A DNA stretch of 64,000 nucleotides from Schleiferia thermophila (GTDB lineage: Bacteria > Bacteroidota > Bacteroidia > Flavobacteriales > Schleiferiaceae). The number at the start of each line of letters is the position of its first letter. Within the stretch, counting starts at the first letter, position 1. Below, one piece after another: positions 40,807-50,915 of the stretch. The stretch lies in assembly GCF_003337435.1 (NCBI RefSeq), contig NZ_QPJS01000001.1, forward strand, positions 1 to 64,000, written 5' to 3'. A program made the translations under genes and the position numbers. The notes beneath the pieces are model-generated. The model searched no databases and was not told the DNA's origin. It was given only the letters and a program-made list of their open reading frames with translations.

Positions 40807-41579
40807 ACAAGACAGTAAAGAAAACATCAGATTCTACCATTATCTCACTTGATAAAAATCGTCTTCCAAGACACATAGCCATCATTATGGATGGCAATGG
40901 GCGCTGGGCAAGGTCCAAAGGATTGGTTCGCACCCTTGGCCATGAAAATGGCGTTGATGCATTAAGGCGAATAGCCACAGCTTCCGCAGAGATTGGTATC
41001 GAATACCTTACCGTATATGCGTTTAGCACAGAGAACTGGCATCGCCCGAAATCCGAAGTAAAAGCCCTGATGTCAATTCTCGTCAGAGCGCTCCGAAAAG
41101 AGCTCTCTACTTTACTGGACAATAACATCAGACTGCAAGCCATAGGAGAAATTGCACTGCTTCCCAACGAGATTCAAAAGCAGCTTAGAGAAGTCATTCA
41201 GCTTACATCAGAAGGCGACCGAATGGCGCTTACCCTGGCGCTCAGCTATTCTTCAAAAGAAGAAATTCTGAGAGCAACCCGATTACTCGCCGAAGATGTG
41301 CAAAGAGGCTTTTTGTTGCCAGAAAATATAACCGAAGAAGTGTTCGAAAACTATCTCTATACCAGAGGAATGCCTCACCCTGATTTGTTGATCAGAACCA
41401 GCGGAGAGTATCGTATCAGCAATTATCTGCTCTGGCAGTTAGCATATACGGAATTGTATTTTTCTCCAAAACTTTGGCCTGATTTTACGAAAGAAGACCT
41501 CTACCAGGCAATCGCAGAATATCAAAAGCGCGAACGAAGGTTTGGACTAACATCAGAACAACTAAATGAAAATACATAA
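40788..41579 (+). CDS. uppS: Undecaprenyl diphosphate synthase (cis-prenyltransferase)
   Basis: The 263-residue enzyme condenses isopentenyl diphosphates into the C55 carrier lipid for peptidoglycan and surface glycans. The catalytic aspartate D35 is in HIAIIMDGNGRWA, followed by HENGVDALRRI, LTVYAFSTENWHRP and the C-terminal DLLIRTSGEYRISNYLLWQLAYTELYF, all conserved. The N-terminal 25 residues are extra. The ATG lies inside the DUF6089 3' end, and the stop overlaps bamA by 14 bases, so the genes are tightly linked. Confidence 0.95.
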   Translation: MHPGLVNKTVKKTSDSTIISLDKNRLPRHIAIIMDGNGRWARSKGLVRTLGHENGVDALRRIATASAEIGIEYLTVYAFSTENWHRPKSEVKALMSILVRALRKELSTLLDNNIRLQAIGEIALLPNEIQKQLREVIQLTSEGDRMALTLALSYSSKEEILRATRLLAEDVQRGFLLPENITEEVFENYLYTRGMPHPDLLIRTSGEYRISNYLLWQLAYTELYFSPKLWPDFTKEDLYQAIAEYQKRERRFGLTSEQLNENT

Positions 41580-44100
41580 ATATAAGCGGGCTCATAATCT
41601 GACTTTACCACTGCTTTTTTTAATCTTTAACATCTTACAATTCAACGTTTTGCGCGCACAGTCAGGCGAGCCTGTGGACATCATCGAAGGTTTAGAATAT
41701 GAAATTGGCGGAATTACACTTGCCGGTGCCGAAAACCTGGATTATAATCTGGTGCTGCTCATCGCAGGAATCAATGTAGGCGACCGCGTTACATTTCCTA
41801 GCGATAAAATAACACGCGCCATCAAAAATCTATGGAAACAAAAACTTTTTGAGGACATCCAAATCTATGTAACCGGAAAAAGCGGTCGCATTATTTATCT
41901 CGAAATTTATCTGAAAGACCTCCCAAGACTGAGCAAATATTACATCACCGGAATAAAAAAAAGCCGCAGAGACGAACTGCGCGAAGAACTCAAACTCAAT
42001 CGCGGCATTGTAGTAACTGACAATCTGATACTCACATCAAAAAATAAAATCCTAAAATACTACGAAGAGAAAGGATATTTCGATGCCTCAGTAGAAATTG
42101 TCACCGAAAAAGACACCGCTGAGTCCAATGCCGTGATATTAGGATTTAACATTACCGAAGGGGAGCGAATCAAAATACGCGACATTTACTTAATCGGAAA
42201 TAATGCACTCACCGATCGTCAGCTGCGCAAAACCATGAAAGAAACCAAAAGACATCGAAGCTTCAATATTTTCCGAACCTCTAAATTCATTGATGAAAAG
42301 TTTAGGGAAGACCTGGAAAAAATAATTGATAAATACCAGGAAATTGGCCACAGAGATGCACGCATTATCAAGGACTCCATCTACAAAATACCAGGAGAAA
42401 ACTTCATCAATATCTACATCGCCATAGAGGAAGGCAATAAATTTTATTTCAGAAACATCACTTGGATAGGCAATACCAAATATCCATCAGAGGTGCTCAA
42501 TTCTGTACTCAAAATCAAAAAGGGCGACCCCTACGATGCTAAACGACTTAGCGAAAGACTTTATGCCGACCCCAACGGCAACGACGTAAACTCGCTCTAC
42601 ATGGACAACGGGTATCTGTTTTTTAATCTGACTCCCGTAGAAGTACTGATCGAAAATGACTCCATCGATTTGGAAATGCGAATTCGGGAAGGTAGACAAG
42701 CCACCATCAATCGTGTGACGGTATCAGGTAATGAGCGCACAAACGATCACGTGATCATGCGCGAAATCCGAACCCGACCAGGCGACCTCTTCAGAAAAAG
42801 CGACATTCAACGCACCATGAGAGAGCTCTCCCAACTAGGCTTTTTTGACCCTCAGCAGCTAAATGTCAATCCCGTACCAAATCCCGAAACTGGCACTGTA
42901 GACGTTGAGTATACTGTCGTTGAGAGAAGTACAAGTCAGCTGGAACTTCAGGGAGGATGGGGAGGTGGTCTTGGAATTGTCGGTACTCTGGGACTTAGCT
43001 TCAACAACTTCTCCGCAAGGAACATTTTTAACAAAAAAGCATGGACACCTTTACCCTCAGGCGACGGGCAAACACTCAATTTGAGAGCACAGAGTACAGG
43101 CAGATATTTCCAGAATTACTCCTTCTCTTTTACCGAGCCATGGCTCGGAGGTAAGCGACCCAATTCTCTCACCATATCAGGCTATCACTCTGTGCAAAAC
43201 TTCGGAGGCCGCCGTATCGGCGACCCCCTCCGACAGGCATTAAACATTACCGGACTAACAGTAGGACTTGGCAGACGCCTCCGCTGGCCCGACGACTACT
43301 TCACCCTCTATCAAGCTTTGGAATTCCAGCACTACCGCCTTGACAATTTCGAGCTTGGCATTCCCAACTTCCGAAACGGATTTTCCAACAACTTCTCCTA
43401 CAGAATTGTGCTGACCAGAAACAATACCGATGTGCCCATCTTCCCCACCAGAGGCTCTAACACCATCTTTACGCTAAAACTTACCCCACCGTACTCACTT
43501 TTGTCGGGCCGCGACTTTACAGATGCAACACCTCAGGAAAAATTCTTTCTTCTTGAATATTACAAGTTTAAGTTTAATACCACCTGGTACACCGAAATTT
43601 ACAAAAACCTCGTCCTTTCATCCCACGCTGAAATGGGTTTTATGGGAGCCTACAACCGTACCATAGGTTTGAGTCCTTTTGAGCGCTTCTTCGTCGGGGG
43701 TGATGGTTTGCAGAATTTCGTACTCGACGGCAGAGAAATTATCGGCCTCAGAGGATATATGAACAATTCCATAGTTCCCTCAGGAGTAGCCGGATCCAAC
43801 CAGTTGGGCAACGGAGGTGTGCTCTACAGCAAATACACTGCCGAGCTGCGATTTTTGATTTCTCCCAACCCCAGTGCTCAGATCTGGCCCCTGTTGTTTG
43901 CTGAAGCCGGCAACAATTTCGGTTCGTTCAACGAATACAGGCCTTTCCAATTGTACCGAAGTACAGGTGCCGGAATCAGAATTTTTATGCCCATGTTTGG
44001 GCTGCTTGGTATAGATATTGGCTACGGATTTGATCCGATGCCCGGGTTTTCCTCACCCTCCGGCTGGAGAACACACTTTATCATTGGACAGCAATTTTAA
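41566..44100 (+). CDS. bamA: Outer-membrane protein assembly factor BamA
   Basis: The 844-residue Omp85 protein inserts beta-barrel proteins into the outer membrane. A signal peptide is followed by tandem POTRA domains (about residues 45-450; e.g. GITLAGAENLDYNLVLLIAGINVGD, IYLIGNNALTDRQLRK, ITWIGNTKYPSEVLNSVLKIKKG) and a 16-strand barrel ending in GQQF with the terminal Phe required for barrel recognition. VERSTSQLELQGGWGG is the usual entry to the barrel. It is followed by two Skp-like chaperone genes, its functional partners. A promoter for the first of these lies in its last bases. Confidence 0.95.
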   Translation: MKIHKYKRAHNLTLPLLFLIFNILQFNVLRAQSGEPVDIIEGLEYEIGGITLAGAENLDYNLVLLIAGINVGDRVTFPSDKITRAIKNLWKQKLFEDIQIYVTGKSGRIIYLEIYLKDLPRLSKYYITGIKKSRRDELREELKLNRGIVVTDNLILTSKNKILKYYEEKGYFDASVEIVTEKDTAESNAVILGFNITEGERIKIRDIYLIGNNALTDRQLRKTMKETKRHRSFNIFRTSKFIDEKFREDLEKIIDKYQEIGHRDARIIKDSIYKIPGENFINIYIAIEEGNKFYFRNITWIGNTKYPSEVLNSVLKIKKGDPYDAKRLSERLYADPNGNDVNSLYMDNGYLFFNLTPVEVLIENDSIDLEMRIREGRQATINRVTVSGNERTNDHVIMREIRTRPGDLFRKSDIQRTMRELSQLGFFDPQQLNVNPVPNPETGTVDVEYTVVERSTSQLELQGGWGGGLGIVGTLGLSFNNFSARNIFNKKAWTPLPSGDGQTLNLRAQSTGRYFQNYSFSFTEPWLGGKRPNSLTISGYHSVQNFGGRRIGDPLRQALNITGLTVGLGRRLRWPDDYFTLYQALEFQHYRLDNFELGIPNFRNGFSNNFSYRIVLTRNNTDVPIFPTRGSNTIFTLKLTPPYSLLSGRDFTDATPQEKFFLLEYYKFKFNTTWYTEIYKNLVLSSHAEMGFMGAYNRTIGLSPFERFFVGGDGLQNFVLDGREIIGLRGYMNNSIVPSGVAGSNQLGNGGVLYSKYTAELRFLISPNPSAQIWPLLFAEAGNNFGSFNEYRPFQLYRSTGAGIRIFMPMFGLLGIDIGYGFDPMPGFSSPSGWRTHFIIGQQF

Positions 44101-44114
44101 TCTGAGTAACTTTG
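44084..44114 (+). promoter_or_regulatory. Promoter for the first ompH gene, inside the bamA 3' end (TTG-N20-TAACTTTG)
   Basis: TTG at 44084-44086 and TAACTTTG at 44107-44114 are 20 bases apart, fitting the Bacteroidota -33/-7 arrangement. The -7 element ends only 4 bases before the GTG start at 44119, so the transcript would be leaderless. Confidence 0.6.
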
Positions 44115-44118
44115 CCTT

Positions 44119-44649
44119 GTGAAAAACGGTAAACTGCTGAAATTTAGTTTTATAGCAATATTCTTTGCGACAATCGGCGGTCTCCTCGGTCAGACTCAGC
44201 GAATTGCCATTGTCGATACAGAATACATCCTAAAAAAAATTCCCGAATACAATCAGGCTCAAATGGAGCTTGACCGACTTTCAGCCCAGTTTGAAGGCGA
44301 AATAGAGGCGCTGAAAAGCGAACTTCTGGCCCTGCAGCGCACTCTTAACGCCGAAAAAGTTCTCCTCACCGACGATATGATCCGCGAACGCGAAGAAGCT
44401 ATCGCCAAAAAAGAAAAACAAATCATCGATACCCAACGCAAATATTTCGGTGTGGAAGGCGAGCTCTTTAAAAAGCGCAAAAGCCTTGTGAAACCCATTC
44501 AAGACCAGGTATACAACGCCATTCAGGAAGTAAGCCGCCAAAAAAAATTTGACCTGGTGATAGACCGATCCAATGCCTTGATCGTTTTGTATTTCAGCGA
44601 CAAAATTGATATTTCAGACGAGGTGCTCAATAAATTAGGCTACAGATGA
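44119..44649 (+). CDS. OmpH/Skp family periplasmic chaperone (first copy)
   Basis: The 176-residue protein has a signal peptide (FSFIAIFFATIGGLLG) and a Skp-like body: a beta-strand core around QRIAIVDTEYILKKIPEY and long alpha-helical arms of the coiled-coil type (MELDRLSAQFEGEIEALKSELLALQRTL), closing with KFDLVIDRSNALIVLYF. Skp holds outer-membrane proteins soluble in the periplasm on their way to BamA. Starts at GTG 44119. Second paralogue follows 34 bases later. Confidence 0.9.
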   Translation: MKNGKLLKFSFIAIFFATIGGLLGQTQRIAIVDTEYILKKIPEYNQAQMELDRLSAQFEGEIEALKSELLALQRTLNAEKVLLTDDMIREREEAIAKKEKQIIDTQRKYFGVEGELFKKRKSLVKPIQDQVYNAIQEVSRQKKFDLVIDRSNALIVLYFSDKIDISDEVLNKLGYR

Positions 44650-44683
44650 ATTTTATAAACAAAAACCATAAATACCAATTGTC

Positions 44684-45313
44684 ATGATCAGAAAAACCCT
44701 ATCAGCCGCAATAGTCTGCATTTTTTCTCTTGCCGGACTAAACGCACAAAAATTTGCACACCTGGATTTCACAGAGCTCGTCCGCTCCATGCCTGAGTAC
44801 AAACTGGCTCAGGAAGAAATGGAAAAAATGCGAAAAGAGATGGAAGACGAACTCATCGAATTGCAAACCGAGCTCAGAGAAAAAGCCCAAAAATTCGAAA
44901 AAGAAGCTGCCAGCTATACCGACCTTGTACGACAAAGAAAAATCCGCGAAATCCAGGAAATGCAACAAAAAATCCAGGAATATGCCGAGGAAAATCAGGA
45001 AAATCTCGCTCGACGTCAGCAAGAACTCCTCCAGCCACTCACCCAAAAAGCTCAAAAAGCCATTGAAGAAGTGGCCAATCGCAACGGATATACCTATGTA
45101 TTTGATTCAAGTCAAGGCAATGGATTGCTCTTTTTCAAAAATGGAGAAGACATCTTACCCCTGGTAAAAAAACAACTGGAATCAATGCCAGCTATCGATA
45201 TCCGAGGTACTGGTCCTTCAGCACCCAGTGCAGGCTCAGCCCAGCCAGCTCAAAACAACCAGCAACAAGCTCCCGCTCAAAATCAGCAATCAACCAAACA
45301 AAAGAGAAAATAA
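44684..45313 (+). CDS. OmpH/Skp family periplasmic chaperone (second copy)
   Basis: The 209-residue protein repeats the Skp design: signal peptide (LSAAIVCIFSLAGLNA), QKFAHLDFTELVRSMPEYKLAQ, two long charged helices (EEMEKMRKEMEDELIELQTEL) and the core strand TYVFDSSQGNGLLFF. Unlike the first copy it has a C-terminal Gln/Pro/Ala-rich tail (about residues 180-209), probably unstructured. Tandem Skp genes after bamA are common in Bacteroidota. A terminator follows. Confidence 0.9.
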   Translation: MIRKTLSAAIVCIFSLAGLNAQKFAHLDFTELVRSMPEYKLAQEEMEKMRKEMEDELIELQTELREKAQKFEKEAASYTDLVRQRKIREIQEMQQKIQEYAEENQENLARRQQELLQPLTQKAQKAIEEVANRNGYTYVFDSSQGNGLLFFKNGEDILPLVKKQLESMPAIDIRGTGPSAPSAGSAQPAQNNQQQAPAQNQQSTKQKRK

Positions 45314-45337
45314 GCCCCGCTACATCACACTATCTCC

Positions 45338-45366
45338 AGACCTTCAGTTCAGAAGGTCTTTTTTAT
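45338..45366 (+). terminator. Terminator after the bamA-ompH unit
   Basis: AGACCTT (45338-45344) and AAGGTCT (45353-45359) form a hairpin followed by a T-run. A -7-like element for the next gene (45364) overlaps the T-run. Confidence 0.85.
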
Positions 45367-45371
45367 TTTTG
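45364..45371 (+). promoter_or_regulatory. -7 element TATTTTTG for the DUF493 gene
   Basis: TATTTTTG matches TAnnTTTG, directly in the terminator tail and 21 bases before ATG 45393. No clear -33 box. Confidence 0.35.
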
Positions 45372-45392
45372 CAAGATAAATTATTCCTGAGA

Positions 45393-45671
45393 ATGGCCAA
45401 AAAACAATACAATTTCGATAAACTCATGGAACTGCTTAGCAAAGAGCCTTGGCCTCAGGTGTATTACTTCAAATTTATCGTACCAGCCGATAACAAACTT
45501 ATCGCAAGAGTGCAATCCCTGTTTAACTCACAAGAAGCAAACATCAGCATGCGCAGGTCTTCCAAAGGCAAATACATCACCATATCAGCTAAAGAAATGA
45601 TGCTCTCTGCCGAAAGCGTTGTCGAAAGGTATAAAAAAGCCTCAGAAATCGAAGGTATCATATCCCTTTAG
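45393..45671 (+). CDS. DUF493 family protein (YbeD-like)
   Basis: The 92-residue cytoplasmic protein has the ferredoxin-like alpha-beta fold of the DUF493/YbeD family: WPQVYYFKFIVPADNKLIARVQSLF, then SMRRSSKGKYITISAKEMMLSAESVVERYKKASEIEGII. Length matches the family. ATG 45393 gives the usual start; a longer frame from 45228 would run back through the ompH gene. Function unknown. It may head a unit with the LD-carboxypeptidase 15 bases downstream. Confidence 0.85.
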   Translation: MAKKQYNFDKLMELLSKEPWPQVYYFKFIVPADNKLIARVQSLFNSQEANISMRRSSKGKYITISAKEMMLSAESVVERYKKASEIEGIISL

Positions 45672-45686
45672 CACACCTATACTGCC

Positions 45687-46619
45687 ATGACAATACCAAT
45701 AATCCCTCTGCTTAAGCCAGGGGATAAAGTATTTCTTCATGCTCCGGCCAGGGCCATAGATACATCCATAGCTCAAGCAGCCGTCGAAATCATGACATCA
45801 CATGGTTTGAAAGTAGAATCTGGAAACACCCTCACTACCAAATACCTTCAGTGGTCAGCACCAGACATTGACCGTGCAAAAGAACTTACCAATGCGATTG
45901 CCCGGCCTGATATCAAAGCCATTTTTATGGCACGAGGAGGTTACGGATGTGTCCGTATCATCGACCATGTCGACTTCAGCCCATTGCATAAGTATCCAAA
46001 GTGGCTGGTCGGATTTAGCGATATCACTTGTATATTGGCTCATCTATGGCAAAGCCAGAAAATGCCTTCCCTACACGCACCAATGCTTATCAATTTCAAA
46101 GACAACACTCCGGAAAGCATCCATTCCATCTTTCAACAACTGATTACGGGCCGTGGTGAACTTTTCGGAGACGATGGTATCCCGGGCACTGCCGTAGGTC
46201 ACCTGATCGGTGGCAACCTTTCTGTTCTTTATTCACTCCTGGGCTCTGTCTCCTTCCCGGACCTCAAAAACAGCATACTAATCCTCGAAGATGTTGACGA
46301 ATACTCGTATCACATTGACCGCATGCTCTATGCCCTTCGGAGAGCAGGTGCTTTTCAACACTTGGCAGGTCTGGTAGTAGGCTCCTTTACATCCATTCGC
46401 GACCACGATGTTTCTTTCGGCTACACCGTACACGAAATATTTCTCCATCACTTCGCCTCCATGGGCATTCCGGTAGCATTCGGTGCCAATATAGGCCATC
46501 ATCGCGATCAGCGAGCCTTCATTCACGGAGCTATGGCTACCCTCGACGTTTCCCCGCAACAAACCTGGTCACTGCAATGGCACTACATCACAAAACAGGA
46601 AAAGGAGGAGAACAATTAG
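45687..46619 (+). CDS. LD-carboxypeptidase (peptidase family S66)
   Basis: The 310-residue enzyme removes the terminal D-alanine from tetrapeptide murein fragments during recycling, or is MccF-like. The nucleophile Ser111 is in WLVGFSDITC; the general base pair is visible as LEDVDEYSYHIDRML and GHHRDQRAFIHG. KAIFMARGGYGCVRIIDHVDF is the conserved glycine loop. No signal peptide, so it acts in the cytoplasm. It overlaps yraN by 43 bases, so the two are tightly linked. Confidence 0.92.
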   Translation: MTIPIIPLLKPGDKVFLHAPARAIDTSIAQAAVEIMTSHGLKVESGNTLTTKYLQWSAPDIDRAKELTNAIARPDIKAIFMARGGYGCVRIIDHVDFSPLHKYPKWLVGFSDITCILAHLWQSQKMPSLHAPMLINFKDNTPESIHSIFQQLITGRGELFGDDGIPGTAVGHLIGGNLSVLYSLLGSVSFPDLKNSILILEDVDEYSYHIDRMLYALRRAGAFQHLAGLVVGSFTSIRDHDVSFGYTVHEIFLHHFASMGIPVAFGANIGHHRDQRAFIHGAMATLDVSPQQTWSLQWHYITKQEKEENN

Positions 46620-46936
46620 CAGCCGAATACCTCCTTAAAAAAGGCCACAAAATTCTCGAGCGAAACTGGCGCTGGGACAAAGCCGAAATCGATATCATAT
46701 CCCTCGATGCAAACTTTCTGGTATTTACCGAAGTCAAAACACGCTCAGGCTATCCGGTCCCTGAGGCCTACGAAACCCTTAACGAATCAAAAATGACCCA
46801 CTATGCCGAGGCTTCCGAAGCCTATCTCGAATGGAAAAACCTCGATCACGAAGTCCGTTTCGATTTTATCGTCGTATGGCTCATTCCCGGAAAAGACCCC
46901 ATTATCCGCCATTTCCCCTTTGCCTTTAATCCCTGA
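46577..46936 (+). CDS. YraN family putative endonuclease (UPF0102)
   Basis: The 119-residue protein has the restriction-endonuclease-like core of YraN/UPF0102: GKGGEQLAAEYLLKKGHKILERNWR, KAEIDIISLDANFLVFTEVKTR and a C-terminal FDFIVVWL. The E-D-E-K residues (GEQ, AEIDII, EVK) match a PD-(D/E)xK site. Its biochemical role is not established. The start lies well inside the LD-carboxypeptidase gene. Confidence 0.9.
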   Translation: MALHHKTGKGGEQLAAEYLLKKGHKILERNWRWDKAEIDIISLDANFLVFTEVKTRSGYPVPEAYETLNESKMTHYAEASEAYLEWKNLDHEVRFDFIVVWLIPGKDPIIRHFPFAFNP

Positions 46937-47075
46937 ATAACAGCCTAAATACCGCCCGGAACATTTGTACCAAAAAATGAAATTAAATATTCCTTAGGCA
47001 GGTGTGCAACAAAAGTTACGCAATCCTTGTTATAAGCATCGTTTCTTTACACTAAATTTTAATCTATCAAACTAA

Positions 47076-47441
47076 ATGGCAACCATAAAACTAACCACCG
47101 AAGATTTTAAAGAAAAAATCTTTGACTATACAAAAGAAAAAGAGTGGAAATACAAAGGTCAACGTCCCGCACTTATTGATTTCTATGCAGACTGGTGCGC
47201 CCCCTGCCGCATGGTAGCACCCATCCTGGAAGAGCTCTCCGAGGAATACAAAAATCAAATCGATATCTACAAAGTAGATACAGAAGCCGAAGAAGAACTC
47301 TCCGCAGTATTTGGCATCCAAAGCATCCCAACCTTCCTTTTTATCCCTATGGAAGGCTTGCCCATGATGCAACCGGGAGCCCTTCCAAAAAATGTATTTA
47401 AAAAAGCCATCGACCAGGAGCTGCTCAAGCAAAAAGCTTAA
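47076..47441 (+). CDS. trxA: Thioredoxin
   Basis: The 121-residue cytoplasmic oxidoreductase has the redox site WCAPC at residues 40-44 in LIDFYADWCAPCRMVAPILEEL, the buried YKVDTEAEEEL strand and the cis-proline in IQSIPTFLFIP. It is about 12 residues longer than E. coli thioredoxin because of an N-terminal extension. It reduces protein disulfides. It stands alone with its own terminator. Confidence 0.93.
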   Translation: MATIKLTTEDFKEKIFDYTKEKEWKYKGQRPALIDFYADWCAPCRMVAPILEELSEEYKNQIDIYKVDTEAEEELSAVFGIQSIPTFLFIPMEGLPMMQPGALPKNVFKKAIDQELLKQKA

Positions 47442-47463
47442 TCTGTCACAACACATCACCACT

Positions 47464-47502
47464 AAAAATCCCGTAGCTCTGATTGAGCCATGGGATTTTT
47501 TA
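47464..47502 (+). terminator. Rho-independent terminator after trxA
   Basis: AAAATCCC (47465-47472) pairs with GGGATTTT (47492-47499) and contains an inner GCTC/GAGC stem; a T-run follows, 24 bases after the trxA stop. Confidence 0.88.
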
Positions 47503-47665
47503 TTTCCCTACATTTCAGCAAGTTTTGGAAATTTCTGCATGCACCTATCCCTCTTAATTGACAATTATCAGCACTACCAGCAGGTTTCAATTTTACCTTA
47601 GCCGCGAAATTTGAAGCTCCGGCTTCAGCTTTCATCACACGGATTAGTAACCAAACACTTTTAAA

Positions 47666-49492
47666 ATGAGCGATTATTCCAAAGACGTAAAACACAAGAA
47701 ACTGCTCAACTGGGTTCACCAAATGCAGGAATTGCTCAAACCCGATAGAGTTCACTGGTGTGACGGAACGGAAGATGAGTACCAGGCTATGTGCAATGCC
47801 CTTGTCAAAAAAGGTACTTTCATACCGCTGAACCCGGAAAAAAGACCCGGGAGTTATGCGTGTTTTTCCGATCCCTCAGATGTAGCTCGCGTAGAAGATC
47901 GCACCTTTATATGCAGTCTCCGGGAAGAAGACGCCGGCCCGACCAACAACTGGATGGCCCCTGAAAAAATGAAAGCCATACTGCAGCCCCTCTTCGATGG
48001 CAGTATGCAGGGCCGCACCATGTACGTCATACCCTTCTGTATGGGTCCGCTTGACTCACCCCTCTCACAGTTTGGTGTGCAGATCACCGACAGCGAATAC
48101 GTCGTTATCAATATGCGCATCATGACCCGCATGGGCAAAGCCGTGATCGACAAACTAGGAGCCGATGGCGAATTCGTAGAGGCCGTACATACCGTCGGAG
48201 CACCCCTGAAACCCGGCCAGCAGGATACCAAGTGGCCCTGTAACCCCACAGTCAAATACATAGTCCACTACCCCGAAGAACGCAGCATCTGGTCCTATGG
48301 ATCAGGCTACGGCGGCAATGCCCTCCTTGGCAAAAAATGCTTCGCCCTGCGCATCGCCTCCGTTATGGGTCGCGACGAAGGCTGGCTCGCTGAACACATG
48401 CTCATACTCGGCGTCAAAAGCCCGGGAGGCTCCAAAAAGTACGTAGCCGCTGCCTTCCCGAGCGCCTGTGGCAAGACCAACTTCGCCATGCTGATCCCAC
48501 CAAAAGGACTGGAAGGCTGGGAAGTCACCACCGTAGGCGATGACATCGCCTGGATACGCGAAGGCGAGGACGGCCGCCTCTATGCCATCAACCCCGAGTC
48601 AGGCTATTTCGGTGTAGCCCCCGGAACCAGTGCCCACACCAACCCCAACGCCATGGCTACCATCAGCCGGAATACCATCTTTACCAACGTAGGCGTTACC
48701 CCTGATGGGGATGTTTGGTGGGAAGGCATCGGCTGGCCCATGCCCGAAGGCACCATCAACTGGAAAGGACAAGTCCATGACCCCAATTCAGGCGAACCCT
48801 GCGCCCACCCCAATGCACGCTTTACCGTATCGGCCAGCCAAAATCCGGCCATCGACAGCGAATGGGAAAACCCCTCCGGCGTACCCATCTCAGCCTTTAT
48901 CTTCGGCGGCCGGCGCAGCACCACCGTCCCCCTCGTCTACCAGGCCTTTAACTGGAACTTCGGCGTCTACTCCGCAGCCACCATGGGCTCCGAAATGACC
49001 GCAGCCGCCTTTGGTCAGATCGGTAAAGTCCGCCGTGATCCCTTCGCCATGCTCCCCTTCGCCGGTTACCATATGGCCGACTACTTCAACCACTGGCTCA
49101 ATTTCGGCCGAAAACTCAAAAACCCACCCCGCATCTTCGCCGTCAACTGGTTTCGAAAAGATAAAGACGGAAAATTCCTCTGGCCCGGCTTCGGCGAAAA
49201 CATGCGCGTCCTGAAGTGGATCTTCCAGCGCGCCAGCGGACAGACCTCAGCCGTAGAAAGTCCCATCGGCTGGATGCCCCGCTACAAAGACATCGACTGG
49301 ACCGGACTGGACTACACCCCAGAACAATTCGAAGAAGTCATGCGCATCGACACCAAAGAATGGAAAGCCGAAATCCTCTCCCACCAGGAACTCTTCGAAA
49401 CCATGTACGACAAAATGCCGAAAGAGTTCTTTTACATGCGCGAACTCATCCTCTCCAGCATCTGGCGCAAACCCGATGACTGGCATGTATAG
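47666..49492 (+). CDS. pckG: Phosphoenolpyruvate carboxykinase (GTP)
   Basis: The 608-residue enzyme interconverts oxaloacetate and PEP with GTP/GDP, for gluconeogenesis. The kinase loop [13 protein letters not shown] (residues 264-276) contains the reactive Cys268 of the GTP class, not the ATP-class motif. Other family blocks are [38 protein letters not shown] and [20 protein letters not shown]. Length is standard. Its codons are markedly C-ending and GC-rich compared with most of the window, consistent with high expression or a different ancestry. A strong terminator follows. Confidence 0.96.
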
Positions 49493-49514
49493 CACATCAG
49501 CAAATCCTTTACTA

Positions 49515-49543
49515 CACACCCGGCACCAAAGCCGGGTTTTTTC
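49515..49543 (+). terminator. Rho-independent terminator after pckG
   Basis: CCCGGC (49519-49524) and GCCGGG (49531-49536) with a 6-base loop are followed by a run of six T residues, starting 27 bases after the stop. Confidence 0.92.
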
Positions 49544-49564
49544 TTTCATCTCCTATTCATTCCC

Positions 49565-49694
49565 TTGGGCGTGCCCCCGCGCGCCGGCCTGATGGCCTTT
49601 CCGCGCGGGGTCGGGCTGCTCCGGGGTGCGCTTCGCTCCCGTGCTCCGCTGCGCTGCGCACCGCCCTGCGGGCGCCCTCCGCATCCCTCACGCA
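49565..49694. repeat. Highly structured GC-rich intergenic element (putative dispersed repeat)
   Basis: The element begins GGGCGTGCCC (49567-49576), continues with a long hairpin whose arms CCCCGCGCG (49575-49583) and CGCGCGGGG (49602-49610) enclose GGCC-TGAT-GGCC, passes TCGGGCTGCTCC, then a stem GGTGCGC (49625-49631)/GCGCACC (49656-49662) and a small GCCC-TGC-GGGC hairpin (49663-49673), and ends GCATCCCTCACGC (49681-49693). It is far more GC-rich than the surroundings and has no believable ORF. The head GGGCGTGCC, the middle GGTCGGGCT and the tail GCATCCCTCACGC resemble a recurrent intergenic element I associate with Bacteroidota genomes (from memory, unverified). Whether it is RNA, mobile, or a REP-like repeat is unknown. 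Confidence 0.6.
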
Positions 49695-50240
49695 GTACTC
49701 CCCCCTGCAAGTCCACACCCCCACCACATTCCAACCTTTCAACCGACCAATCCGACCCATAATCCGGCTCCCACTCCCTTACAATCCTCCGCGTAACCAC
49801 TCCTTATTGAACTTCCATATCCCGCACACACCCGCTTTCCAATTGCTTCATTAGCCACAAAACCACGCCTGCATCAGGCCTCCCTGTGCTAAAACTACCG
49901 GCTCGCTCAGCTCCGCAAGCCCGCCAATCCCCCAATTTCCGGCCTATCCAATGCCATCCCGGACCCATTGCCTATAGCTTGCCTTTCCCTTTCATCTCTT
50001 CCCTTTTCATGCACCTGAACATCTCCCTTTATTCACTTTTCTCTTTTTTCACACTTCTGCGCGGTCTTCAGACGGGCTGCCCTTCACCGGCACATATTCC
50101 GGAAACAGGCTCCCACCCTCACAGGCCTTTGGCACTGGTTGAGGCCCGCAGGCTCCGTCCGGCCTCTGAGGACTACTGCCCTTCGATCAGGAGGCTATTG
50201 GCATCCTGATTATGCAGGGATTGCCGGTCGAGATAGTTTT
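49695..50240. other. Long non-coding stretch, pyrimidine-rich on the + strand
   Basis: No ORF with believable protein composition. The + strand is rich in C and T between about 49700 and 50100, with short direct and inverted motifs, and its composition differs from both neighbouring genes. Forward ORFs at 49886 and 50139 are proline- and serine-rich shadows without domains. Confidence 0.5.
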
Positions 50241-50320: not shown

Positions 50321-50564
50321 AGTGTTACAAGATAGCGTATTCATTTATTGGGCACTGCAAGCGCCTTACGGCCCGGTCAAATGTGATTATGTTTTATTCA
50401 TTGGGTGTACCAGCTGACAAGAAACAGCTTTATGCGGTAAGCTTTATCAAAAATTCTCTTTAAAAGCTCAAAGCCGATTCTGTAGAATTTTTTAAAAATG
50501 CTTTCCGTCCTTTATACAGATGAACAATTCCTTTTTTGCCAGCGTCGTAAATAAAAAAATTACA

Positions 50565-50915
50565 ATGCCCACTCTGATCTTTAAAGGCAAAAAAATTGAA
50601 ATTGACCAATCCAAAACCTTGAGAAATCAGCTCATCAAACATGGGGTGTCCCCGCACAATTATGCAGCTGAAATCATTAATTGCCGTGGAATAGGGACCT
50701 GTGGTACCTGTGCTATAAAAATTGTGGACGGACTATATACTCCACCCACCCGACAAGAAAAATGGCGTTTAAACTTTCCTCCCTTTAAAAACGGCCTACA
50801 AGCCGGATTTCGCCTTTCTTGCCAGACCAGAATTCTCTCTGACTCCATTGCAGAAAAAGGCATTGGATTTTGGGGAGAAAAATTTTATGATAAAAGTACA
50901 TCATCCGTCGGGTAA
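50565..50915 (+). CDS. Plant-type [2Fe-2S] ferredoxin
   Basis: The 116-residue protein is a small electron carrier with the ferredoxin pattern C40-x5-C46-x2-C49 (NCRGIGTCGTCAI) and a fourth cysteine C86 in FRLSCQTRIL. The ubiquitin-like beta-grasp start (PTLIFKGKKIEIDQSKTLRNQLIKHG) is clear. I chose ATG 50565; an upstream ATG at 50520 adds 15 residues without the fold. Its redox partner is not adjacent. It stands between the structured intergenic region and the acyltransferase gene. Confidence 0.88.
   Translation: MPTLIFKGKKIEIDQSKTLRNQLIKHGVSPHNYAAEIINCRGIGTCGTCAIKIVDGLYTPPTRQEKWRLNFPPFKNGLQAGFRLSCQTRILSDSIAEKGIGFWGEKFYDKSTSSVG

Follow-up and report, generated by a model that had tools for sequence, protein, structure and literature searches.

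What is the GC-rich, non-coding sequence that separates a PEPCK gene (47666-49492) from a ferredoxin-like gene (50520-50915) in Schleiferia thermophila, and how does it relate to the DNA around it? The window analysed here is a stretch of 64,000 nucleotides (assembly GCF_003337435.1, contig NZ_QPJS01000001.1, positions 1 to 64,000, forward strand), in which an earlier reading, made from sequence alone, had marked positions 49565-49694 as a folded element that may be a repeat dispersed in Bacteroidota or a structured RNA. Our analysis shows that a dispersed structured element, with a fold proven by covariation and a three-way-junction-like core, has one of its copies here, directly 3' of T-rich sequence. 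The discrete element spans 49567-49693 (127 nt), at most three bases off the marked limits, and its parts are as follows.

49567-49693, + strand: structured dispersed repeat, whole element (GGGCGTG...CACGC); + is the reading direction used, and the functional strand is unproven
49554-49566, + strand: T-rich 5' flank, after a terminator-like hairpin at 49518-49537
49569-49573, + strand: 5' arm of stem P1 (GCGTG), pairing with 49689-49693; covaries as GCGTG/CACGC, GCGTT/AACGC, GCGTA/TACGC and GCATG/CATGC
49574-49610, + strand: P2 hairpin (CCCC...GGGG), helices 2 and 3; the most variable part, swapped wholesale between copies with pairing kept
49613-49619, + strand: arm X (GGGCTGC), helix 4; pairs with arm Y at 49681-49687, one mid-helix position being unpaired (here C.T)
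49663-49673, + strand: small hairpin GCCC-TGC-GGGC, helix 8
49681-49687, + strand: arm Y (GCATCCC), partner of arm X
49689-49693, + strand: 3' arm of P1 (CACGC), partner of the P1 5' arm

Copies and fold of the element

A BLAST search with the interval and 20-nt margins located 40 places in the home genome, 38 of them full length and two cut at contig ends. The covariance model built from the 38 full-length copies (R1) raised the total to 44, adding four divergent copies to those found by BLAST. Full-length copies in this genome measure 117-144 nt. The proposal of a dispersed repeat thus held by both nucleotide search and covariance model, as did the claim that the interval has no ORF: the ORFs that overlap it (65-84 aa) overlap each other on both strands and none is credible. 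Two home contigs, C6 (63760-63868, L021) and C2 (517722-517830, L022), terminate within copies, which suggests that the repeat breaks assembly.

Most home copies are intergenic and lie near the gene on their 5' side, as judged by simple ORF calling. They are immediately preceded by a T-rich tract, and some lie just beyond a terminator-like hairpin. In a broad set of copies collected by pattern, TTT directly precedes GGGCG in 72 of 113 (CTT at the window copy), and the base adjoining the element on its other, 3', side is a purine in 106 of 113. No target duplication was detectable in 177 flank pairs compared with shuffled pairs, no neighbouring protein family is widespread (the largest clusters hold five of the 118 loci of the broad set), and the 3' flanks share just weakly enriched words, several of them with CCGG. 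A promoter scan of the window gave two weak, overlapping hits on the upper strand. Several local arrangements were also observed. Copies L012 (C2:12662) and L011 (C4:232308) are alike in their 3' flanks and downstream proteins, so that a larger duplicated unit, perhaps an insertion sequence, adjoins the element there. Six of the 44 home copies fall within 54 kb (C3:130742-184805), the genome average being one per about 59 kb. In three records (L220, L227, L251) a TypA/BipA-type GTPase gene lies 46-58 nt from the element in the same orientation.

The sequence-only reading had inferred several nested stems, and this claim held by covariation and not by folding energy. Folded with its flanks (170 nt), the single sequence has a z score of -1.76 and is equalled by 9 of 200 shuffles; since this is merely modestly better than chance, the stems are unproven by energy and covariation was used as proof. 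RNAalifold was applied to an alignment of the 38 home copies (A1), which omits the four divergent copies and the two truncated at contig ends, and gave a closing stem P1 (GCGTG/CACGC), the hairpin P2 and a helix X/Y (GGGCTGC/GCATCCC) that bears further hairpins. A larger alignment (A2) holds 78 distinct copies from the home genome, Thermaurantimonas, genome G019 and Chryseobacterium-like genomes; its input to R1 was 76 loci, with five home copies excluded (L012, L013, L016 and the two cut ones). In A2, 25 of the 34 pairs have changed on both sides, which none of 500 shuffles matched, and 95.7% of the cells pair. The covariation score is 0.286, compared with 0.087 in shuffles and at most 0.061 when the structure is slid. 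Because A2 was fitted to the structure of the model, it leans towards that structure. The X/Y helix takes 17 letter combinations in the 78 copies, 12 of which are fully paired save for one unpaired or wobble fourth or fifth position, and the last pair of P1 across genera (n = 117) is G-C in 61 copies, T-A in 48, A-T in five and something else in three. The pattern that defines the broad set fixes GGGCGT, TCGGGCT, ATCCCT and ACGC, so the evidence for covariation there comes from the free positions alone.

Which strand folds is less clear. The upper strand has the better folding energy in only 6 of 78 copies, and the lower strand is better in 106 of 117. We have withdrawn this difference as proof of the functional strand, as shuffled letters nearly match it (-5.62 versus -4.81 kcal/mol, p 0.11). 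Non-Watson-Crick cells in P2, read on the upper strand, comprise 102 A.C and 50 G.T, which favours the lower strand, with the caveat that related copies are not independent; helix 5 has G.U pairs on the upper strand, which favours folding of that strand. Covariation proves the structure without settling whether the element acts as DNA or RNA or which strand folds. The structural part of the structured-RNA alternative has held, and we have no evidence for an RNA role; no RNA-seq data bear on transcription. In five Chryseobacterium-like copies (L051, L099, L101, L102, L104) the P2 loop bears an extra hairpin of the type AAACCTCATAG...CTATGAGGTTT, like an inserted second repeat.

Distribution across phyla and turnover of sites

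The architecture GGGCGTN...TCGGGCT...ATCCCTNACGC is shared by many Bacteroidota and, in addition, by Fibrobacter, Treponema and Leptospirales. A search of 84,980 species genomes for the exact pattern returned at least 118 stretches. The matches include Flavobacterium, Chryseobacterium, Epilithonimonas, Pedobacter, Sphingobacterium, Chitinophagaceae, Saprospiraceae, Cytophagaceae and Bacteroidales, as well as Treponema, Spirochaetaceae, Leptospirales and Fibrobacter. A match in Arthrobacter (L245), beside integrase-type proteins, is taken as chance, and four stretches from viral contigs (L322-L325) contain the exact pattern. In an even sample of the phylum the pattern occurs in 16 of 392 genomes, the home genome included, and a backwards control gave zero in every row listed. 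With strict filters, R1 detects the element in 14 of 296 genomes from the order and in 4 of 40 near relatives, both counts including the home genome. Rfam has no family matching any part of the window at gathering scores; with E values up to 10 there are two sub-threshold hits, both off the element.

The earlier reading had associated a head and tail pattern with intergenic sequences recurrent in Bacteroidota. Head, middle and tail do recur there, and also in Spirochaetota and Fibrobacterota. That reading had named in advance what would refute it, namely a single-copy sequence with no matches and no covariation, and this failed on all three points. Its interpretation as a dispersed structured repeat is supported and its restriction to Bacteroidota was too narrow; that the element is a structured repeat of several phyla is, in our judgement, very likely.

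L245 and L283 (a duplicate of a Thermaurantimonas contig) were excluded from the paired statistics, the P1 count, the strand-folding comparison, the P2 wobble count and the flank tests. Both were retained in the pooled skew table and the protein clusters described here, and the correlation of score with skew given below excluded L245 alone.

Individual sites turn over. Downstream of pdxJ in Flavobacterium, the element occupies one place in three named records. Among 30 further loci inspected by eye, L352 carries the element, L330 and L335 have it with altered ends, L333 keeps a remnant, 25 have none and one was unread. This comparison indicates that copies persist at a site, decay and get lost. 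Between the two Schleiferiaceae genomes, S. thermophila and Thermaurantimonas, the comparison of neighbours found no copy at a shared position; a few genes adjoin copies in both, but these are differently placed. As the two genomes hold copies at different sites, copies move.

The composition gradient beside the element

The sequence-only reading had noted a sharp GC difference between the element and its flanks. This contrast is real, but the gene upstream is itself unusually GC-rich (up to 0.59, compared with 0.36-0.49 in nearly all of the remaining window), and the richness of that gene led us to our main finding. Two further features of the window are needed here.

41000-49566, + strand: 5'-side composition gradient; GC skew about -0.05 to -0.28, GC content 0.40-0.45 to 0.58
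49694-50056, + strand: 3'-side G-poor tract, change point at +363

In the window, GC skew is about 0 near 41 kb and drops to -0.43 at the element. Over the same distance GC content climbs from about 0.42 to 0.58, across a stretch that covers a thioredoxin gene (47076-47441) and the PEPCK gene. Both quantities regain the background about 0.5-0.7 kb past the element.

The same profile is found across the home genome. The mean skew profile of the 44 copies, all turned to element orientation, starts at about 0 at -7 kb and reaches -0.10 at -3.5 kb, -0.20 at -2 kb and -0.29 at -0.5 kb. Skew is still -0.29 in the first 0.5 kb on the 3' side; a weak tail follows, with -0.10 at 0.5-1 kb, -0.07 between 1 and 2 kb and about -0.04 beyond. 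The 2 kb upstream have negative skew at 42 of the 44 copies (sign test 1e-10). As a control, the mean for 62 gene ends remote from any element is +0.012; 20,000 resamplings of these ends gave no value below -0.048, the observed value near elements being -0.242.

The change lies at neutral sites, and second codon positions alter far less. On approach to the element from its 5' side, four-fold upper-strand C increases from 0.30 to 0.64 where genes are oriented along the element and from 0.21 to 0.44 where they are oriented against it. C at second codon positions is 0.22 both far and near for genes along the element, and moves from 0.17 to 0.22 for genes against it. At two-fold sites, upper-strand C/(C+T) shifts from 0.43 to 0.71 (genes along) and from 0.40 to 0.64 (genes against), whereas A/(A+G) shifts much less (0.64 to 0.69-0.73 and 0.57 to 0.61-0.65), which indicates that the driver is mainly T-to-C on the element's strand. 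Exponential fits in the home genome give a decay length of 2.9 kb in both gene orientations. In high-copy genomes, then, neutral sites on the 5' side (decay about 2-3 kb) and in about 0.4-0.5 kb on the 3' side are enriched in C and depleted in T and G, and the enrichment is on the element's strand regardless of gene direction. The 3' end of the gradient is variable, with change points from 37 to 1500 nt in a search restricted to 30-1500. The model score of a copy correlates only weakly with its skew (Spearman -0.18, p 0.25). Nearly identical copies likewise sit in strong gradients, which is unexplained; possibly they are old at their sites and convert one another, or else they seek skewed DNA.

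Other genomes show the gradient to differing degrees. In Thermaurantimonas aggregans (G001, Schleiferiaceae; 22 copies) four-fold C rises from 0.27 to 0.53 and from 0.18 to 0.35, with fitted decay lengths of 2.4 and 1.7 kb, and A/(A+G) drops near the element (0.67-0.69 to 0.57, and 0.62-0.59 to 0.55). In Flavobacterium ichthyis (G250; 10 copies) four-fold C goes from 0.18 to 0.34, and in the other gene orientation from 0.13-0.21 to 0.29. Five low-copy genomes with 11 elements together show a rise in four-fold C alone, from 0.16 to 0.23 and from 0.15 to 0.26 within 1 kb; their raw skew within 1 kb is +0.03, so the gradient there is weak or doubtful. No gradient was seen at 15 fetched elements of the Chryseobacterium-like family, where sites are few and several are shared between species. 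When 119 elements of many genera are pooled, skew averages -0.043 to -0.047 between position -1500 and the element and is close to zero past it, and in the broad set the upstream 1 kb is negative at 67 of 100 (p 0.0006). Over these groups the strength of the gradient goes with copy number, which is an observation and not a test. An element-associated directional gradient in high-copy genomes is very likely real.

Does the gradient belong to the element or to the genes that happen to lie beside it? We compared orthologs between the two Schleiferiaceae genomes, using the fetched stretches only. Of 59 reciprocal-best pairs, 11 have one gene within 2.5 kb upstream of an element and a partner far from any element, and 15 pairs in which both genes are far served as controls. 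Upper-strand C is higher in the near gene in 9 of the 11 pairs (means 0.35 and 0.23, Wilcoxon p 0.024) and upper-strand G is lower in 8; the clearest flips for C are 0.52 versus 0.17 and 0.51 versus 0.16, and two pairs run against the trend (0.34 versus 0.48, and 0.18 versus 0.20). The control pairs agree with each other on average. On the basis of these 11 pairs, the gradient tracks the element and not the gene. Overall, we judge it likely that the element causes the gradient.

Possible origins of the gradient

Upper-strand T-to-C change that decays leftwards is the mark expected if the lower strand were synthesised again and again with the upper strand as template and G opposite T were left uncorrected. 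We infer from this that recurrent one-sided repair or restart synthesis near the element may leave a T-to-C "mutation shadow". No nuclease, nick or break has been shown, and we rate the proposal as a serious candidate that falls a little short of probable. In this view, the element would be a recurrent site of strand breakage, nicking or fork collapse, initiated by a nuclease or other protein that is unidentified. Synthesis would start repeatedly within about 0.5 kb 3' of the element and proceed leftwards through it, copying the upper strand; uncorrected G opposite template T would accumulate as T-to-C, with a density that declines with synthesis tract length. Through this break-and-repair activity, copies could also convert one another and, on rare occasions, seed new sites without a dedicated transposase.

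Some background is available for such a spectrum. In mismatch-repair-defective E. coli, A.T transitions exceed G.C transitions about threefold, and A.T-to-G.C changes double in likelihood when T templates the leading strand (PMC8510543). Y-family polymerases frequently yield T-to-C (PMC8510543). Genes for MutS and a Y-family polymerase are present in all four genomes tested, which counts against loss of either as the cause; nor can their presence explain why the effect is strong in some lineages.

Several findings count against the synthesis reading. The Chryseobacterium-like set has no gradient, the low-copy genomes show a weak one, and the upstream skew, once pooled, is as small as about -0.045. 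In genes against the element, second codon positions also shift somewhat. The fall of A/(A+G) in Thermaurantimonas is not expected from G-to-A errors, and at four-fold sites all three other bases yield to C, which exceeds pure T-to-C. In addition, the distance at which the gradient ends on the 3' side varies, and the model score fails to predict skew.

One rival holds that the element is not the cause: domains would be C-skewed for other reasons, and elements would preferentially insert, or be retained, at their borders. In its favour are the near-identical copies in strong gradients, the weak correlation of score with skew, and the fact that copies apparently move whereas gradients build slowly. 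Against it, orthologs lacking a nearby element show lower upper-strand C in 9 of 11 pairs, the change is located at the element and follows its strand at 42 of 44 copies, and neither gene-strand nor far-field skew accounts for such domains. We therefore consider it unlikely.

Also unlikely is that the copies are a structured RNA, or an RNA-level signal, in a transcript that starts a few hundred bases away and continues for kilobases through the element, the gradient being transcription-associated mutation that fades as transcripts end. The strong covariation and conserved letters speak for it, as do the start of the gradient 0.3-0.5 kb to one side in many copies, which resembles a transcript start, and the P2 non-Watson-Crick cells that favour lower-strand folding. 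However, the four-fold sites of coding strands far from elements are rich in C and not in G, so ordinary transcription leaves no such mark here. Promoter motifs on the lower strand are sparse: with a Bacteroidota-type consensus, any -7 box was found within 1.5 kb in 15 of 41 home copies and the full motif in 3 of 41. The better energy of the lower strand is mostly composition, the G.U pairs of helix 5 lie on the upper strand, and there are no transcript data.

A third rival, a REP-like element mobilised in trans by an IS200/RAYT-type Y1 transposase whose nicking makes the gradient, is very unlikely. For it are the hairpin repeat without target duplication, the single Y1 gene of the home genome, and the report that the Bacteroidetes TnpA_REP subclass 2.6 has flanking 'atypical secondary structures' with copies elsewhere in the genome (PMC6006769). 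Against it, core motifs of the element occur within about 1.5 kb of none of the 36 Y1 loci examined (of 46 matches, being 30 of 40 from one search and all 6 from another), and R1 finds no copy at them, although R1, being tuned to the home family, may overlook distant forms. Thermaurantimonas, with its 22 copies, has no Y1 match (PF01797, E up to 1), nor have G019, G164 and G300. The sole PF01797 match of the home genome is a 124-aa, IS200-like Y1 protein (L047:3986-4360; C1, about 430.6 kb) that lies more than 50 kb from any copy. Its DHVH and YIKNQKQHH motifs resemble subclass 1.2, which is described as generally without typical terminal structures (PMC6006769).

An ordinary MITE moved by the DDE transposase of another genomic element would account for a short, dispersed, non-coding sequence with inverted ends (GCGTG/CACGC, the 5-bp P1 alone), and is the least likely rival in our judgement; against it stand the absence of direct target repeats above the shuffled level in the 177 flank pairs, the lack of a widely shared neighbour protein in the broad set and an internal structure maintained through compensatory change. 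A retroelement or group II intron derivative is not supported, as G000, G001 and G019 have no match to the reverse transcriptase family PF00078 at E up to 0.001.

To return to one-sided synthesis, a bolder form of it is possible, though no more than that: a conserved, transposase-free structured DNA would be a programmed origin of one-directional mutagenic synthesis, each active copy casting a 2-3 kb shadow on its 5' side, in which neutral sites of nearby genes shift to C on one strand, and copies persisting by conversion. If true, Bacteroidota, and perhaps the other phyla that bear the repeat, would possess an element-encoded local mutator of genome-wide reach. A short non-coding repeat would set the local rate and direction of mutation over kilobases, on one side of each copy, and the adjacent genes would evolve under a mutation spectrum unlike that of the remaining genome. 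Such copies would offer a natural handle on strand-specific repair synthesis in bacteria. They would also call for caution, since analyses of GC skew, codon usage and horizontal transfer would misread these regions.

Neither the element nor such a gradient is described among the titles in the open-access literature that we searched (hits were partly viewed, and most subscription papers lie outside it), and papers matching the element's short sequence strings looked unrelated by title in the part of the matches viewed. The repeats of PMC5771137 concern Porphyromonas MITEs. Chi sites are oriented and have a one-sided effect that decays over kilobases, like the gradient of the element; unlike the element, Chi is 8 bp long, unstructured and far more frequent, and stimulates recombination. 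No mutation gradient is known to us at Chi sites. Break-associated hotspots in E. coli are reported to place mutations within kilobases of a break through repair synthesis (Shee et al. 2012), but those are experimental breaks, with no natural repeat and no fixed structured site. Structured RNA families in Rfam share compensatory base-pair changes with the element, and none matches it. Integron attC sites end in the R boxes RYYYAAC and GTTRRRY and occur in cassette arrays, whereas copies of the element are dispersed and their end letters seemingly do not fit.

A further likeness is to REP and REPIN sequences with RAYT (TnpA_REP), which are short palindromic intergenic DNA repeats, present in tens of copies and believed to move as single-stranded DNA. 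The element differs in being longer (117-144 nt in the home genome), with several helices, conserved letters and a multi-phylum range, and in having a directional composition gradient, no GTAG tag and no linked Y1 gene at the 36 loci. CGTC-tagged REPs, reported in five phyla including Bacteroidetes and Spirochaetes (PMC3733652), are likewise dispersed palindromes seemingly without a dedicated transposase. They are small hairpins (REPs of 20-40 bp) with an unpaired CGTC end, whereas the element has a multi-helix fold and ends in GGGCGTG/CACGC, with GCGTG and CACGC paired and no unpaired GTAG or CGTC at the end of a single hairpin. In a Chryseobacterium-like genome, a RAYT-like gene (L094:1320-2030, motif NHVH) lies between different GC-rich hairpins and apparently belongs to a separate REP system.
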